In this document: piece by piece, positions 32,176 to 44,722 of the stretch
Position numbering within the stretch: the stretch's first letter is position 1
Layout of the letters: every line of letters starts with the position of its first letter
Notes under the pieces: model-generated
Databases searched by the model: none
The model's input: only the letters and a program-made list of their open reading frames with translations
Told to the model about the DNA's origin: nothing
Source: Deltaproteobacteria bacterium
Lineage (GTDB): Bacteria > Desulfobacterota > Desulfuromonadia > Desulfuromonadales > BM103
DNA: 64,000 nucleotides
Direction: 5' to 3'
Assembly (NCBI GenBank): GCA_024279915.1
Contig: JAJRRB010000001.1
Coordinates: 1-64,000, forward strand
Translations under genes and position numbers: made by a program

Positions 32176-32362
32176 TTGAATAAAGGTTCCTTTTATTAAA
32201 CTGATTCAGTGCATGAATATAATGCCTTTATTAAAAAGGAACTGTCAATCGACCAGAGGCAGGATTAAAGAGGAACAGATAGATGATAAATGATTGACAT
32301 CGCCGCTCAAGACATTTATTTTATTACAAATCTTGTCAAGTATGTCGTTAAAGGAACTTACC

Positions 32363-32806
32363 TTGATTATTACCCGTGCCACAGAATATGCCATCCGCGC
32401 AATTCTTCATATGTCCCGCCAACCGGCCGGGGAAATCATCTATAAAAAAGACATCTGCAAAGATCAGGATATCACGCCAGCGTTCCTGACTAAGATACTC
32501 CAGCCATTGATCAAAGATGGCATCGTCGGCTCCCAGCGTGGGGTTGGTGGCGGCTTTTTCCTGGTGAAAGAGCCCGCAGAAATAACCCTGCTCGACATTG
32601 TAAAGTCTCAGGAAGGCCCAGTTTATCTCAACCAGTGCCTTATTGAAGATGATCCTTGTGATCGTCAATTTTTCTGTCCGTTACACGGTGCCTGGGCAAA
32701 GATTCGTGAAGAATTCATGGCCACTTTATCACGCTACGATTTTGCCAGCCTGGTCGCCGAGCAGAAAAAACTCCCGCCCCAGTGCAGCGAAAACTCCAAC
32801 AAATAA
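32363..32806 (+). CDS. Rrf2-family regulator with cysteine triad
   Basis: 147 residues from TTG 32363, seven bases after AAGGA; the family begins L/M-I-I-T-R-A-T-E-Y-A, as here. Winged helix-turn-helix (A-F-L-T-K-I-L-Q-P-L), wing G-V-G-G-G-F-F-L, then C-x6-C-x5-C (Q-C-L-I-E-D-D-P-C-D-R-Q-F-F-C), typical of iron-sulfur-binding members such as IscR and RsrR. It lies about 290 bases upstream of the haem cytochrome, so it may tune that system to redox or NO, an inference from position. Confidence 0.85.
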   Translation: MIITRATEYAIRAILHMSRQPAGEIIYKKDICKDQDITPAFLTKILQPLIKDGIVGSQRGVGGGFFLVKEPAEITLLDIVKSQEGPVYLNQCLIEDDPCDRQFFCPLHGAWAKIREEFMATLSRYDFASLVAEQKKLPPQCSENSNK

Positions 32807-33097
32807 TAGCGATCAGAGACAAAAACGCTGGGAACCAGGAGGGGAAAACTCCAGGATTAAAGGCGAAATTGCGTCCAGCGTCCAGAAAGAACCGGAGGAA
32901 TTCACTCTTTCTCTTGAGAAGGACTTCAGACAACACATCATAACAATTCGCAACCGTCTCAATTTAAATCGTAAAATTCTTGATGTTAGATGGCAAAATA
33001 CTCATAATAGAGCTGTTTGTGTTGATATTATCTGGGGACTTTCCACTTTAATAATATTTTGCAATCTGGGTTCGCCGTAGATATCTGGAGGTATGCC

Positions 33098-34078
33098 TTG
33101 CAATATCGAATTCCTCTGTTCCTTGTCCTGACAGGCATACTTGGTGCTGCCTGTACCGACCTTTCCACATTACGTTCATCACAACCGATAGCACCTGTCA
33201 GGAGTTACGAAACCCTTCTGGTCGGCAATCTCGATGCCAATTACATCGGTGATGAGAACTGTCTGACAAGCTGTCACACTCACGACAAGGTTGCTGCGGA
33301 TTTCAAACATTCTATCCACGGCGACCAGATCTCGGAAGATACGGGCCTGCCACTGGTCAATTGCGAATCGTGCCATGGCCCGGGCAGCATAGCCGTAGAA
33401 CATGCCGCTGAAAAGAAAACCTGCGACTTCAAAACCCTATTACCTCTCGCCGAGTTTCCGGCCCAGGCCCAATCAATGCTTTGTCTGAAGTGCCACTCGG
33501 CGGCCTCCACTCCGAATCTGAGCAGTTGGAACTCAAGCGTACACGCACTGAACGATGTAAGCTGCTTTGACTGCCACAAACTGCACAAAGGGCCGCAGCA
33601 AAAAGTTAGCCGTCATGAGCAGGAAGAGCTCTGCACTGGCTGCCACACGCAGACTAAAATGGAGTTTGCCCAGTTTTCCCATCATCCGGTTCCGGAACAC
33701 AAGATGGCCTGTACCGACTGCCATGATCCACATAGCTCGACCAACCGTAACAACCTCAAGGGCGTCACAAGCAAAGCCCTCTGCACCCGCTGCCATATGG
33801 AGTATCAAGGGCCGTTTGTCTACGAACATGCCGATGTCACCGAAGAGTGTACCAACTGCCATAGTCCCCACGGTTCACCAAACGAACCGCTGCTGGAAGT
33901 ATCCCAGCCCTTCCTCTGCATGCAGTGCCATGCCAGCCACCACGGGGAAGGAACCGCGTCGTTAAGTTCGCCAGCCATGAAGCAGGCGTTTTACACCAGA
34001 TGCACCGACTGCCATTCATCGATCCATGGAACCGACATTCCATCCTCCCATGGGCGTGGAACATTTATTGCCAGATAG
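33098..34078 (+). CDS. DmsE/MtrA-like multihaem c-type cytochrome
   Basis: 326 residues from TTG 33098, six bases after GGAGG; M-Q-Y-R-I-P-L-F then a hydrophobic segment ending G-A-A-C suggests a lipoprotein or exported protein. Nine CXXCH motifs (C-E-S-C-H, C-L-K-C-H, C-F-D-C-H, C-T-G-C-H, C-T-D-C-H twice, C-T-R-C-H, C-T-N-C-H, C-M-Q-C-H) plus one CXXXCH (D-E-N-C-L-T-S-C-H) at the front, so ten haems are possible if the atypical site is filled. Resembles periplasmic electron carriers that insert into MtrB-type barrels. The barrel gene follows 65 bases downstream; no outer-surface MtrC-type cytochrome is in the window. Confidence 0.85.
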   Translation: MQYRIPLFLVLTGILGAACTDLSTLRSSQPIAPVRSYETLLVGNLDANYIGDENCLTSCHTHDKVAADFKHSIHGDQISEDTGLPLVNCESCHGPGSIAVEHAAEKKTCDFKTLLPLAEFPAQAQSMLCLKCHSAASTPNLSSWNSSVHALNDVSCFDCHKLHKGPQQKVSRHEQEELCTGCHTQTKMEFAQFSHHPVPEHKMACTDCHDPHSSTNRNNLKGVTSKALCTRCHMEYQGPFVYEHADVTEECTNCHSPHGSPNEPLLEVSQPFLCMQCHASHHGEGTASLSSPAMKQAFYTRCTDCHSSIHGTDIPSSHGRGTFIAR

Positions 34079-34143
34079 TTTTGTCATCTACTTAGCTTAT
34101 AAGGTTTTATCCTGACGGTACGGAAACACAGGAGATGATTGTG

Positions 34144-36204
34144 ATGGTCCAAAAAAGCTTGCACTATGGGGTTCTGATATTTGTCATGGTGATGCTGACT
34201 CCAGGCTTCGGTCTGGCTGACCTTGGTGACAAATCTCAACTGGAGGACGACAGAAGAGTTCTGGACTTATCTACCGGCTACCGTTGGGTCAGCACTGACG
34301 ATAATCCCAATAGAGCTGCTGAATACAGCGACCTTGACGACAGCCAAACCTTCAGTCTGATCTACCTGCAGGACTTCGGCGACCAGAAATTCTCTCTAAT
34401 CGGGGAGTTCATTACTGACAACGACTATTTTGTCGAAGGAAACTTCGACTATAAGGCTCTCATCCGACTGAATGCCAGATCGGAGAGGCTATATCATAAT
34501 CTCGACCATATTCCTTACCTGGATCACCCTGAAGCGCGGCAAGCGGCCCCTCCGGATGTGTCCTATGAAGACCATAACCCGGGCGCTGATTACAACCGCA
34601 GAATCACCATCAATGAAGTCAAGCTACGCGGCAAGCTGCCCACCTACCCGGCGCACATCAACCTCTCCTACTGGCGCATGGAGAAAAAAGGTAAAGAGCA
34701 GCTTCGTTTTGTCGATGAGAATTGTGCTGGTGCCTGTCACATGCAAAGTAATTCCCGAAAGGTTGACCGGGCTACAGAAGAGTTCACCGTCGGTTTTGAC
34801 GCACATCTGGGCCCCGTTGACATCGCCTTTCTGCAAACCTTGCGCGAATTCCGGGAGAATGAGAATCCACCTGCCAATGATTTTAACCACCTCGACAAGC
34901 TGGGTCGACCTGCAGGTGAATACATCCATGACGAAGCCCCTGATTCCAAGCTCTCAGAATCAACTTTCACGATCAACCTGCCCCCTTCGGGCGGTTTTGT
35001 CTCATCGGCCAGCTACACGATTGGCAAACGTGAGAACCAATCGAATCTAGCGAATGGTCACCGCAAAGACCCCGAGACCGATTATCAGAAACTGGCGGCC
35101 GACGCCACCTACACGCCGGGAGAGAACTGGACGATTAATTTCCGTTACAGAATGCTTGACCTCGACAACGATAGTCCATCTTCACTCACGTCAAATGAGC
35201 TTGCCTTCAATAATTTCGGCAACCCGATATCAGTCCGCCAGAGTATCGATATCGATCGCAATAATTATGCGGCGTTCGTCTCCTATCGCCCTTCGCATCG
35301 CCTGACATTAAAGGGCGAGTTCGAATACGAAGATACCGAAAGAAACCATACCGGTGTCGGCCAGCACAGTTCGCTTGCTGACCCTCCCGTTTCAAATCCA
35401 TACTGGGCCGTCCCGGATGACGAGACGATCAGCCGGTTCCGATTGACATTCTTCTCACGGTTACTGGAGAAGTCAGCTCTCAAACTGAGCGGCTGGTACG
35501 AATACACAAAGATTGACAACCCGGCCTACGGCACCAGTTTAAGTGAGAGCAACGAATTCTTTTTCAATGCGAGCTACAGGCCTTCAGCACTTTGGGGAGC
35601 GACTGGCAGCATCGATGTCCTGCGCGGTGAGAATGATGACCATACTGCAATCCAGTTTGACAACGGTCCAGTCCCTTATGACCTTGACCGTGATGAGGAT
35701 CGCGAGAATCTGGCCCTCGGTTTCTGGCTTATCCCGAATGACATCTTCTCTGCCGATTTCAATTACGGTTGGCTACACTCCAAGATCGACCAGGACGTCC
35801 TCTTTGGTAGCGAGCCAGCCAACTTCACCATTCTGGATGATAATGCAGAATTTGAACAACGGGTCCACACCCTCTCTGCCGGTATCAACCTGCGTATTAT
35901 GGAAAGGCTGAACTGGCGCCTGGAGGGGTATCATATTCGCTCTCATGCAGAGTTCTCCCCGGATTTCGATTCAAGAGACCTTGACTATGACGGCAACATT
36001 CTGCCTGCCAGCCCTGATGGGTTGCAGGACATCAGTGAAGTAGACATCCGCCAGAACGGTTTTAAAACCCGTGTCCGTTGGCAACTTTCCGACATATTGA
36101 CTGCTGGAGTCGAATACACTTTTGACGATTACGATGACCGCAACTCCAATGCATTTGATGGCTCAGTGCAAACGTTCCTCACCAATCTCACCGGGGTTTT
36201 CTGA
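34144..36204 (+). CDS. MtrB/PioB-like outer membrane beta-barrel protein
   Basis: 686 residues from ATG 34144 (nine bases after AGGAG). Signal peptide ending at about L-A-D, alternating polar/aromatic strands throughout, C-terminal Phe typical of outer-membrane barrels. It should sheath the preceding cytochrome and let electrons cross the outer membrane. Unusually, D-E-N-C-A-G-A-C-H (Cys197, Cys201, His202 counted from the 34135 start) is a CXXXCH haem-type motif, matching the D-E-N-C-x3-C-H of the cytochrome. Shewanella MtrB has a CXXC near its N-terminus instead. Confidence 0.65.
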   Translation: MVQKSLHYGVLIFVMVMLTPGFGLADLGDKSQLEDDRRVLDLSTGYRWVSTDDNPNRAAEYSDLDDSQTFSLIYLQDFGDQKFSLIGEFITDNDYFVEGNFDYKALIRLNARSERLYHNLDHIPYLDHPEARQAAPPDVSYEDHNPGADYNRRITINEVKLRGKLPTYPAHINLSYWRMEKKGKEQLRFVDENCAGACHMQSNSRKVDRATEEFTVGFDAHLGPVDIAFLQTLREFRENENPPANDFNHLDKLGRPAGEYIHDEAPDSKLSESTFTINLPPSGGFVSSASYTIGKRENQSNLANGHRKDPETDYQKLAADATYTPGENWTINFRYRMLDLDNDSPSSLTSNELAFNNFGNPISVRQSIDIDRNNYAAFVSYRPSHRLTLKGEFEYEDTERNHTGVGQHSSLADPPVSNPYWAVPDDETISRFRLTFFSRLLEKSALKLSGWYEYTKIDNPAYGTSLSESNEFFFNASYRPSALWGATGSIDVLRGENDDHTAIQFDNGPVPYDLDRDEDRENLALGFWLIPNDIFSADFNYGWLHSKIDQDVLFGSEPANFTILDDNAEFEQRVHTLSAGINLRIMERLNWRLEGYHIRSHAEFSPDFDSRDLDYDGNILPASPDGLQDISEVDIRQNGFKTRVRWQLSDILTAGVEYTFDDYDDRNSNAFDGSVQTFLTNLTGVF

Positions 36205-36298
36205 TCGACGCGGTTCTACTGGAAACGCTAGCGCAACGCATGTAGTATATTGAAAGTGTTTACGTTCGCTATCATCACACTCTATCTTGGATAATCAT

Positions 36299-38662
36299 AT
36301 GCTAAGCATGAAGTTACGTGGAAAACTCGTTCTTGTCCTGCTGCTGGTTGCAGTCGTCCCCTTGCTGGTCAGCCTGATTTTCCTTTCCAACTTTACCAAA
36401 GACCAGATCCGCAGCAGCATGGTGCAGTTCGCTGAGAAATCGAGCAATTTTGTTGAACGCAGCACAGCCAACAGCCAGCAGGAGTTGTCAAACTATCTAC
36501 AACTTCTGAGCAGCTCTTCGGATATGGTCAATGCCCTTTACTATGCATCTTTGACTCAGGATATTGAGCAGTTACATGCGTTAGTCGACACAGTCCATAA
36601 TCAGTACGATATGGATATTCTGGAAGTGCTTGGCGCCGATGGTACATCGGTTTTAAGAGTTAATGCCGAATAATTGACTTTACCCGAAGAACCGGAAATC
36701 GACCATCCTCTTCTCATTGCTGCGCGGCAAACAGGAGAGACTCAGGCTGCCCTTTCAAGTTACCTTGGACAGTTGACAATTCTCGTTGCCACTCCGGTAA
36801 GGCTTCAGGAAAAAATCGTTGGCTTTCTGGTTGGAGCCTACCTGCTGGATGACGACTTTGCCCGCCGCGTCAAAGAGATGGGAGGTGTTGAAGTTGCTTT
36901 TCTGGGGGAGCAGGGTGTCGTTGGAGCTTCGCATCCCGATTTCCAAGGCATAAATCTGACTAAGCATACAAATGAAATTCTGCTCGGTGACAAACCATAT
37001 TTACCGATCATACGCGATCTGTCCGGCACTAATTTTAAACTCGCAATAGCGCAAGATCTCAATAGCGCGTTAGAGGCACAACAATCGTTACGCAACTTAA
37101 TGATCATTCTGATCGGAGTTGTCATCGCAATTGTTCTAGCTGCGGCCTTGCTTTTCTCTCGTGCACTCACCCGACCCTTACTTGAAGTTGTCAGCAACCT
37201 CAAGGAGATTTCGCAAGGAGAAGCAGACCTCACCAAGGCCCTGACAATCAGTAGTAACGATGAAGTTGGTGAACTGGCGGGGAATTTCAACAGCTTCGTA
37301 GCACGTTTACGCGAGATGGTCCTGCGCATCCGGGCTGCAGCTGGCGACATCGTTACGGCCACGGATAAAATTCGTCGTACTTCTAAGGATGTTAATGATG
37401 GCACAGCCAAACAGGCGGAGGCTCTGGAAGACTCCTTCCAGGCAATCCAGGGGATCGATGAATCAACAATCGAGGTCGGCAACAGCATCAGTGCTCTGCT
37501 TGAAGCCGTCGAGATTTCATCATCAGCAACATTGGAGTTGGGAGCCACCATCGAGGAGATTGTTTCCCAGGTTGATCGGCTCTTCAGCACAATAGAAGAA
37601 GTCTCCAGTTCAATCACTGAAATGTCTGCATCCAGTCAGCAAGTTGCCGACAACCTGGATAACCTCTCCGCATCTACAGAAGTCACAGCATCATCTATTA
37701 CCGAGATGGATGCCTCGATCAAGGAAGTTGAAGAAACTGCACAGCACACCAACGAACTTTCCGAGCAAGCTAACCGCGACGCCGAAATTGGCAAGGCCAC
37801 CGTGGCTGAAACGATTGCCGGTATCCAAGCTATCCGCGAGTCAGTCGAAGATGCCAGTCGAACCATCGAAGATTTGGGCAAGCAGTCTGGTGAAATTGGC
37901 ACCATTTTGACGGTTATTGATGACGTTGCCGATCAGACCCGCCTGCTCTCGCTGAATGCATCGATCATCGCTGCGCAAGCCGGAGAGCACGGTAAAGGCT
38001 TCGCGGTGGTGGCCGATGAAATCCGTGAACTGGCTGAACGTACGGCCACGTCAACCCAGGAGATATCGTTTATCATCAGGCGCCTACAGTCAGGAACCGT
38101 AGAGGCAGTCAAGGCGATGCAGATTGGCAGCGAGCGAGTTCGCGAGGAAGCAGAGCGTTCAAAAGTCGCTGAAGAAGCCCTGGAGAAGATTACCGAAAGC
38201 TCTCAGCGCTCATCCGAGCAGGTTAAGAGCATCGTGCGGGCCACTCAGGAGCAGTCACGCGGTAGCCGGCAGATCACCGAAGCAGTCAACCAGGTTGCCA
38301 ACATGCTGCAACAGATATCATCCGCCGTGAAACAGCAGTCAGATGGGATTCAACAGCAGGCACGGGCTGCTGAGGCGATGAAGGACATTTCATCTCAGGT
38401 CAAGCTCAGCACTGGCGAACAGGCCAAGGGCAGCCATCAAATTAGTGCGAGTATGGAAAACATCCGTAACATGATGCAGCAAATTGATCAGGCCTCTAAG
38501 GATCAGTCCACACGCAGTCAACAGGTGGTTGAAGCTGTTTCTGCTGTCCGCAAGATTGCTGAGAGTAATGCTGCACGTACTGCCGAACTAGACAAGGTCG
38601 TTGACAGCCTGGCTGAACAAGCCGAGGTTCTGGAGAGAGAGATCGGCTCTTTCAAGTCCTGA
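36299..38662 (+). pseudogene. methyl-accepting chemotaxis protein, interrupted by one in-frame TAA
   Basis: One open frame of about 788 codons but for TAA at 36671-36673 (G-T-S-V-L-R-V-N-A-E then stop, then L-T-L-P-E-E-P). Before the stop: TM helix 1 (about residues 10-30) and the start of a periplasmic sensor domain. After: rest of the sensor ([13 protein letters not shown]), TM helix 2, HAMP domain, and a long signalling domain with the hairpin [14 protein letters not shown]. Split in the middle of the sensor, the second part lacks its first membrane anchor. Start could be ATG 36299 or 36308. Follows the barrel gene by about 95 bases. Confidence 0.85.
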
Positions 38663-43465: not shown

Positions 43466-44722
43466 CTACTGAGGATTGATTTTACTACCATCCCCTCCAT
43501 CCACACGTTTTAAAATTGCAACCAACGCCGCCAACTTCACTTTGCCGACATCACCGCGAAAGCCCGCAAGAGAAATCAACCGGAACCCGTTTGTCGTCGG
43601 CACAATCCCCACAGCATAAAATCTAACAAAGAAAACCAGCAGAATAGCCAGGGTCAAAATGATACTCCCCAACCAGACCAACGGCTCGCCGGGGTCTTTA
43701 GAGAGCTGAAAGCCACAGGTCCAGAAGCCTGATTCATCACGACTATAGGCTGTCTGATAAATTGCTACACCACGATGAACAAGAGGCGTGTTGACCTCGA
43801 TAATCCCCTGGCGTACGACTTCGTCATTCTCCAGACTCGAAACTTCTGCGTGTAACTGGTTGAGAAGTGGATCACGAAAAGCGGTCGGTTTGATCTCAAC
43901 ACCTGGATCGATACTGTTTGGATACGTTCTTTCGCCACTCAAGCTATGATACTCGCCGATCAGGGCACCCTCACGAACAATACCAAGCACCAGATGCTGC
44001 TCTTCGGGGAAAAATCGCAGCACCTACACACTCAAATCAGGAGAGAGAGCCACGGTTTCTCCTTCACGGGTAGTGAATTCCTGCAGCTGCTCACGAGTCT
44101 CCTTATTGTAAGTGGCAAAGCGCAGATCGATTGGATAATATTGCGGCTCAAAATGATCAAGGCGAAAGGTGAAGCCCAGTGGACTATCAGCTTCGATATC
44201 CCAGTCGAAATATTTATCACTCTGATGGGTCACATAGAGATTCATGGTGCCGACAAAGCCGAGTTGGGCGGCCAGAGCCCCAATCATGATAGCCAGAATT
44301 GACAGGTGCAGAATCGGCAAAGCCCAACGTCCGACCAGGCCACGTCGGGCGAGAACCCGGTCTCCCGAAAGGGTGATGCGATAGCCCAGATTCTGCAGAC
44401 GTGAAGAGAGCTTGTCAACGTCATCACAAGCCAGATCGTGATCTGATTTTTGAGATGCTGGCTCACTGCTTTCCAACAAGCTAAGCAGGCGCTTCTTTTC
44501 GCCAAAAACCCGCACGAAGGTACGCCAGGTACAGGCGGCCAGATTCAAAGCTAAAAGGCCAAGCAAAAGGCGGAACCAGAGAGACTGGTAATAGAGCTCA
44601 AAACGCTGTATCGTGCCTTGTTCGACAGGCCAGATGGTACCAAAAACAGCAACAACTGAGAGCCCCAGCAATAGGGTCAAGGTCAGCTTTACAGAGCTGA
44701 AAAAATCTAGAACAGGTTTCAT
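43466..44722 (-). pseudogene. resB: ResB-type cytochrome c biogenesis protein, interrupted by one in-frame TAG
   Basis: 419 codons, open from ATG 44722 but for TAG at 44024-44026 (A-L-S-P-D-L-S-V, stop, V-L-R-F-F-P-E-E). Before the stop: three TM helices (about 10-30, 50-70, 135-160) with T-I-W-P-V-E-Q-G and the start of the large periplasmic loop. After: rest of the loop (E-V-N-T-P-L-V-H-R-G, Y-Q-T-A-Y) and a last TM helix. Family alignment at that point usually has an acidic residue (e.g. V-E-V-L-R-F), so GAG to TAG is one possible origin. ResB works with CcsA/ResC to attach haem to c-type cytochromes; ccsA is not nearby. Confidence 0.85.

Follow-up and report, generated by a model that had tools for sequence, protein, structure and literature searches.

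A haem-type motif in a predicted extracellular loop of an MtrB-type barrel: a putative eleventh haem for a two-gene electron conduit

The window (the whole 64,000-nucleotide stretch of DNA analysed here) encodes an MtrA/MtrB-type conduit, i.e., a decahaem cytochrome and an outer-membrane barrel, in which the barrel appears to carry a covalently bound haem c of its own that would serve as a surface exit haem above haem 10 of the cytochrome. We place the probability of this reading, which is drawn from sequence comparison, at about 0.6. The two genes and the motifs within them are:

33059 to 34078, + strand: partner cytochrome, MtrA/DmsE-type, decahaem, with nine CX2CH sites and one CX3CH site; start codon uncertain (TIGR03508, 6r2q_A)
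33251 to 33277, + strand: DENCLTSCH, the CX3CH haem-1 site of the partner (residues 65-73), aligned with haem 1 of MtrA
34135 to 36204, + strand: outer-membrane beta-barrel of 689 aa, MtrB/PioB-like, an outlying relative of the GSU2204 family (PF11854, NF041027, 6r2q_B profile match)
34714 to 34740, + strand: DENCAGACH, haem-type CX3CH motif (C197, C201 and H202; residues 194-202 of the barrel), read from the sequence

A CXXXCH motif inside the barrel had been proposed in an earlier note on this DNA, and the codons at that position (gat gag aat tgt gct ggt gcc tgt cac) indeed encode DENCAGACH. It is the single CXnCH of the protein, lying at residue 197 of 689 and after an N-terminal hydrophobic, signal-like stretch that was judged by eye; C197 and C201 are also its only cysteines. 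When the sequence minus its first 28 residues was shuffled, a CX2-3CH arose in 37 of 200,000 shuffles. The barrel scored 39.9 bits against Pfam PF11854 (MtrB_PioB; gathering score 23) in two stretches, the best of which spans residues 312-405, and 28.5 bits against TIGR03509, below the cut-off of 240.05. Its top NCBIfam match was NF041027 (E 1.3e-52), with a score of 179.4 bits that is below the curated cut-off of 350. The nearest named records to the window protein were from Desulfuromonadales MAGs, at 87% (locus L002) and 69% (L003).

The partner cytochrome scored 262 bits against TIGR03508, the DmsE family (cut-off 192.2), and aligned with MtrA (6r2q_A; E 6.4e-46, residues 57-328). In that alignment its CX3CH, which the earlier note had correctly read as DENCLTSCH in the first motif of the protein, coincides with haem site 1 of MtrA. 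Wherever the comparison found a decahaem gene, its position was immediately 5' of the barrel gene. Just upstream of the conduit in the window is a gene for an Rrf2-type regulator (32294-32806, + strand). The gene after the barrel (36287-38662, + strand) has HAMP and MCPsignal domains and is interrupted by an in-frame TAA at 36671-36673; in L002 and L003 the corresponding stretch is one long ORF of about 800 aa.

The behaviour of the motif among relatives was examined. NF041027 matched 68 of 297 genomes sampled from the phylum, 30 of them above cut-off, and the window protein matched 124 of 277 genomes of its class. From 131 loci entered, 126 barrels were aligned and 124 were readable at the motif site; outside these 124 stand L188 and L189 (the same loci as L002 and L003), L105 and L109 (which end before the site), L036 (a fragment), and L043 and L058 (barrels missed by the script, each with one CXXCH in its ORF). 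The motif is not a product of chance: C-Xn-C-H was present in 76 of the 124 barrels (n=2 in 59, n=3 in 16 and n=5 in one). The other 48 were without the two cysteines and the histidine altogether, and a partial C-C-H was found in 0 of 124. The search of other MtrB-like proteins suggested by the earlier note recovers C-C-H in these 76 relatives, though the preceding D-E-N varies, and the histidine is kept in every one of them. The unit occupies one aligned place in two divergent clades, A and B, and is retained even in L050, a barrel with 22% identity to the window protein.

In a tree of 91 barrels, built with the motif columns excluded, presence or absence of the motif needed two changes (one at a 45-row clade, the other at L179), as against 11 for the spacing states. 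The spacing thus drifts, but C, C and H are kept or lost as a set, which is how a c-type haem site behaves and a disulfide does not. Variation in the C-C-H spacing is known from c-type haem sites, and CX3-4CH has been confirmed to bind haem covalently (PMC4245776, citing Stevens 2004). By comparison, CXnCH was found in 0 of 14 examined MtrB-type barrels that matched TIGR03509, several of them below that cut-off; the fragments L199 and L203, and second places without a locus, stand outside the 14. The loss of C-C-H as a unit, the c-type-like variation in spacing and the count of 0 of 14 among MtrB-type barrels together give good comparative support to the haem-bearing barrel that the earlier note had proposed.

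These observations also bear on two rival explanations. The first is that the cysteines form a disulfide or a non-haem metal site and that haem is absent. A disulfide would be unremarkable in a predicted extracellular loop, but the histidine after the second cysteine is kept in 76 of 76 barrels that have the cysteines and gone with them in 48 of 48; in addition, the cysteine spacing varies between 2, 3 and 5 with C-H always adjacent. Neither observation is expected of a disulfide. This explanation is judged to be distinctly unlikely. The second regards the motif as a relic, or as neutral in this clade, with no role in electron transfer whether or not haem is bound. It accommodates the loss of the motif in the 45-row clade and in L179, where the partner was not lost; however, three residues have been kept in 76 barrels, to 22% identity, through repeated changes of spacing, and we give a relic or neutral motif very little credence.

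Comparison of the two clades separates the barrel motif from the CX3CH of the cytochrome. In clade A (GSU2204-like), a CX2CH barrel accompanies a partner with ten CX2CH sites in 30 of 31 paired rows, a count restricted to loci with a barrel that phmmer matched to that of the window; the remaining row has one additional pattern match in the partner and a barrel that is cut off. Clade B (window-like) comprises 85 rows, in 81 of which the partner has nine CX2CH sites and a first site of CX3CH. These 81 are all of the whole partners in the clade, the other four rows (L091, L105, L109 and L118) being at a contig end and without a whole partner. The barrels in the same 81 rows have CX2CH (19), CX3CH (15), CX5CH (one) or no motif (45), and one is cut off. 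The motif-less clade makes up 45 of the 82 clade-B rows in the tree and has the same type of cytochrome alongside, so any barrel haem is dispensable there.

Co-variation of the barrel CX3CH with the cytochrome CX3CH was considered and rejected, as the partner has CX3CH in 81 of 81 whole clade-B partners whatever the barrel has. PMC4245776 (2014) states that Mtr cytochromes were found without any atypical haem motif; by their sequences, the 81 whole clade-B partners, with CX3CH at haem 1, are a counter-example.

The same counts weigh on the proposal that a single haem domain, shared or duplicated, accounts for both the barrel motif and the first site of the cytochrome. The earlier note had seen the barrel motif as an echo of the cytochrome motif, or as part of a domain shared with it, and D-E-N-C-x3-C-H does occur in both window proteins. 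However, D-E-N is not conserved in the barrels, where the residues preceding the first cysteine of orthologues include DES, DEQ, DEG, NED and GEN, so the likeness beyond C-C-H looks coincidental. The partner CX3CH is present in all 81 whole partners, with any barrel state, and corresponds to haem 1 of MtrA on the periplasmic side, whereas the barrel motif maps to a loop predicted to be on the opposite face. That part of the earlier note is not supported, and a shared or duplicated domain is scarcely credible.

The side of the membrane on which the motif lies was sought by alignment with MtrB. The features concerned are:

34690 to 34782, + strand: motif-bearing loop between strands 7 and 8 (about residues 186-216), predicted extracellular from loop length and the MtrB alignment
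34507 to 34509, + strand: His125, candidate distal haem ligand from its association with the motif, in the predicted extracellular loop after strand 5 that adjoins the motif loop
34495 to 34497, + strand: His121, near-universal and probably structural (conserved in 99% of barrels with the motif and 100% of those without)

A mixed profile of 17 barrels, that of the window included, matched MtrB (6r2q_B) over residues 91-694 with an E-value of 6.7e-89. In the PDB profile search L191 on its own matched MtrB, and no match to MtrB was obtained from clade-B barrels alone, nor from L053 or L051 alone. Between the strand anchors of clade B there are short turns of fixed length (4-5, 3, 6 and 3 residues) and long segments (19-21 residues; 25-71, containing His125; 29-48, containing the motif; and 18-38). 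The alternation is imperfect in that the anchors of strands 3 and 4 abut, giving a short connection where an extracellular loop is expected. Asn122 (in YHNLDH) is aligned on Tyr133, and by manual counting of strands the motif loop falls after strand 7. Strand parity in the MtrB alignment and the loop lengths thus place the motif loop and the His125 loop on the long-loop side, and we infer from this that both are extracellular and that they are neighbours. A structure prediction made from three sequences (the window, L002 and L003) reached a pLDDT of 25.6 and the model was discarded. For a 26-strand barrel enclosing the cytochrome, the evidence is the sequence alignment with 6r2q_B.

The solved MtrAB structure provides a frame for these positions: haem A1 is approximately 20 Å inside the periplasm, the haem chain bridges 80 Å between A1 and A10, and A10 faces MtrC across 8 Å (PMC7198977). 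As haem A1 is periplasmic and A10 is near the outer face, the CX3CH of the partner and the barrel motif are expected to lie at the two opposite ends of the conduit, with any haem carried by the barrel loop close to A10. The length of the motif-bearing loop is also compatible with a different use of a bound haem c, in which the loop may fold into the pore and the haem serves to bridge internally, to plug the lumen or to check barrel folding or assembly; the surface loops of MtrB are described as folding over and narrowing the pore (PMC7198977). We regard such an internal haem as unlikely, with nothing specific speaking against it; the outer side of the loop is a prediction from strand parity and loop length.

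A c-type haem in this loop could have a second ligand from the barrel, and all alignment columns were scanned for residues associated with the motif. The strongest association outside the motif itself was with His125, the second histidine of YHNLDH, which was present in 65 of 76 motif-bearing barrels vs 6 of 48 motif-less ones (33 of 37 vs 6 of 46 within clade B). Most of this contrast stems from one large motif-less clade, and the tie between His125 and the motif was not significant in a tree-aware independent-pairs test, for which two pairs were available. Eleven barrels have the motif and lack His125 (L044, L047, L050, L055, L056, L059, L064, L065, L110, L180 and L183), and L179 has lost the motif and retained His125. 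The first histidine, His121, is kept with or without the motif and is therefore probably structural. On the distribution among these barrels, His125 is a good candidate for the distal haem ligand.

If the barrel haem is a surface exit haem, as we favour, the conduit might operate as follows. The decahaem cytochrome would lie within the barrel, its haem 1 facing the periplasm and its haem 10 close to the outer surface. Haem would be loaded onto C197 and C201 in the periplasm by the maturation system, and the barrel would then be assembled around the decahaem cytochrome. H202 would be the proximal ligand and His125, from the neighbouring loop, the likely distal one, so that the haem would probably be bis-His. 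The loop haem would add an eleventh redox centre to the conduit, on the outer face above haem 10, and could exchange electrons, in either direction, with an extracellular partner or mineral. In Shewanella the outward electron hand-over is the job of MtrC, and the loop haem could stand in for it.

Matches to cytochrome c maturation proteins were found in the genome for ResB, and a match to the NrfE/CcmF model was below cut-off. The ResB-like cytochrome c biogenesis gene in the window (43466-44722, - strand) is interrupted by an in-frame TAG at 44024-44026, and further ResB-like stretches occur elsewhere in the genome. TIGR03507 (MtrC/OmcA) had no match in the genome of the window among the 4 of 33 candidates that were scored. 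Scores above the TIGR03507 cut-off were obtained in 4 of 35 motif-bearing genomes vs 12 of 46 motif-less ones (p=0.16), counts that come from related genomes with at most four candidates scored in each and in which the 46 are the subset of motif-less genomes with fetched loci; a trade-off between the barrel motif and MtrC was thus not significant.

Several known systems resemble parts of this conduit. One of them is the GSU2204 family (NF041027; partner GSU2203/OmcK), which NCBIfam names 'GSU2204 family CXXCH-containing (seleno)protein' and which is listed among the selenoproteins tabulated in a review (PMC13188914). GSU2204 itself is labelled 'cytochrome c family protein, putative' in PMC4070692, where it is up-regulated, as is GSU2203, with hematite and magnetite. 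This family shares with the window barrel a single CXnCH at the same aligned place and a gene beside a DmsE-family decahaem cytochrome. The window barrel differs in having CX3CH in place of CX2CH, its clade having CX2CH, CX3CH, CX5CH or no motif; in having neither a cysteine nor a selenocysteine codon at a later loop; and in a partner with CX3CH at haem 1, unlike the ten CX2CH sites in 30 of 31 paired clade-A rows. MtrB/PioB/DmsF proteins (PF11854, TIGR03509; 6r2q_B) have a homologous barrel and an MtrA-type partner but, in contrast to the window barrel, no CXnCH in the 14 examined.

Haem on an outer-membrane porin has precedents elsewhere. Cyc2 (PMC8406198) has one c-type haem motif on an outer-membrane porin, and has been haem-stained and redox-titrated. 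Its haem is in an N-terminal cytochrome domain, predicted periplasmic, on a 16-strand porin, whereas in the window the motif is in a loop of an MtrB-type barrel that is accompanied by a decahaem cytochrome; the hallmark given for Cyc2 in that source, an N-terminal CXXCH after AXPXFAR[Q/K][T/Y], is not present in the window barrel. GM18_3465 of Geobacter sp. M18 is predicted to be porin-like, with haem motifs in long loops exposed to solvent (PMC4245776). It has ten motifs and is associated with a Pcc cluster, whereas the window barrel has one motif that is conserved through a large family. The same bacterial group includes Desulfuromonas acetexigens, whose mtrAB pair (TRO83921/TRO83920) is expressed with an electrode as acceptor (PMC12133095); the available portion of that paper makes no mention of haem on the MtrB.

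The motif in the sister family is therefore known to annotators, and haem-bearing porins have been proposed (GM18_3465) and demonstrated (Cyc2). For this reason the suggestion in the earlier note of a new design for electron transfer stands only in part, being preceded by the NCBIfam family name, GM18_3465 and Cyc2. In the portion of the open-access literature covered, no paper was found on a haem site of the MtrB-type barrel of this family, on its outside location or on its CX3CH form. PMC7198977 describes MtrB as an insulating sheath. If a haem is indeed conserved on that sheath, it would explain how a two-gene conduit hands over electrons to the outside, and the assembly of the outer-membrane barrel would have to accommodate a loop already loaded with haem.

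The later loop of the sister clade was also examined for selenocysteine. The stop codon could be read in 38 rows, of which 37 belong to clade A and the other is L050. In 28 of them (L037, L038, L054-L072, L154, L155, L157-L159, L161 and L162) an in-frame TGA directly follows the conserved G of this loop (G-U-[AG]) and the frame runs on beyond it; the ten rows without TGA are L034, L043-L050 and L073. Most GSU2204-type barrels would thus appear, from their reading frames, to carry both the haem motif and selenocysteine, and in this sister family the two would share one barrel. In the window barrel the reading frame is open through the later loop and the selenocysteine codon is absent.

A broader and more tentative proposal, whose probability we put slightly short of even, is as follows. 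The conduits would form a widespread two-gene class in which a loop-borne eleventh haem c replaces an extracellular cytochrome or docks one; the GSU2204 clade would pair this haem with selenocysteine on the same barrel, and the sheath would be a redox-active surface and not an insulator.

The genome of the window also holds a TGA-containing paralogue, on contig C55 at 70832-71482 (G000; L036), which reads ...MCVGWYHG-TGA-AGEIQSQYGS.... At the end of contig C92 there is the start of a barrel with CXXCH, together with a partner that has ten CX2CH sites; this barrel start and the C55 paralogue may be parts of one gene that a contig break has separated. Among the clade-A rows with CX2CH and no TGA, L044, L045, L047 and L049 adjoin further genes with 7 to 15 haem motifs. 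The distant clade-B barrel L050 (G244:C14) has a second, N-terminal CX2CH (CTQCH) in addition to its loop motif (CTTNCH), and may carry two haems.
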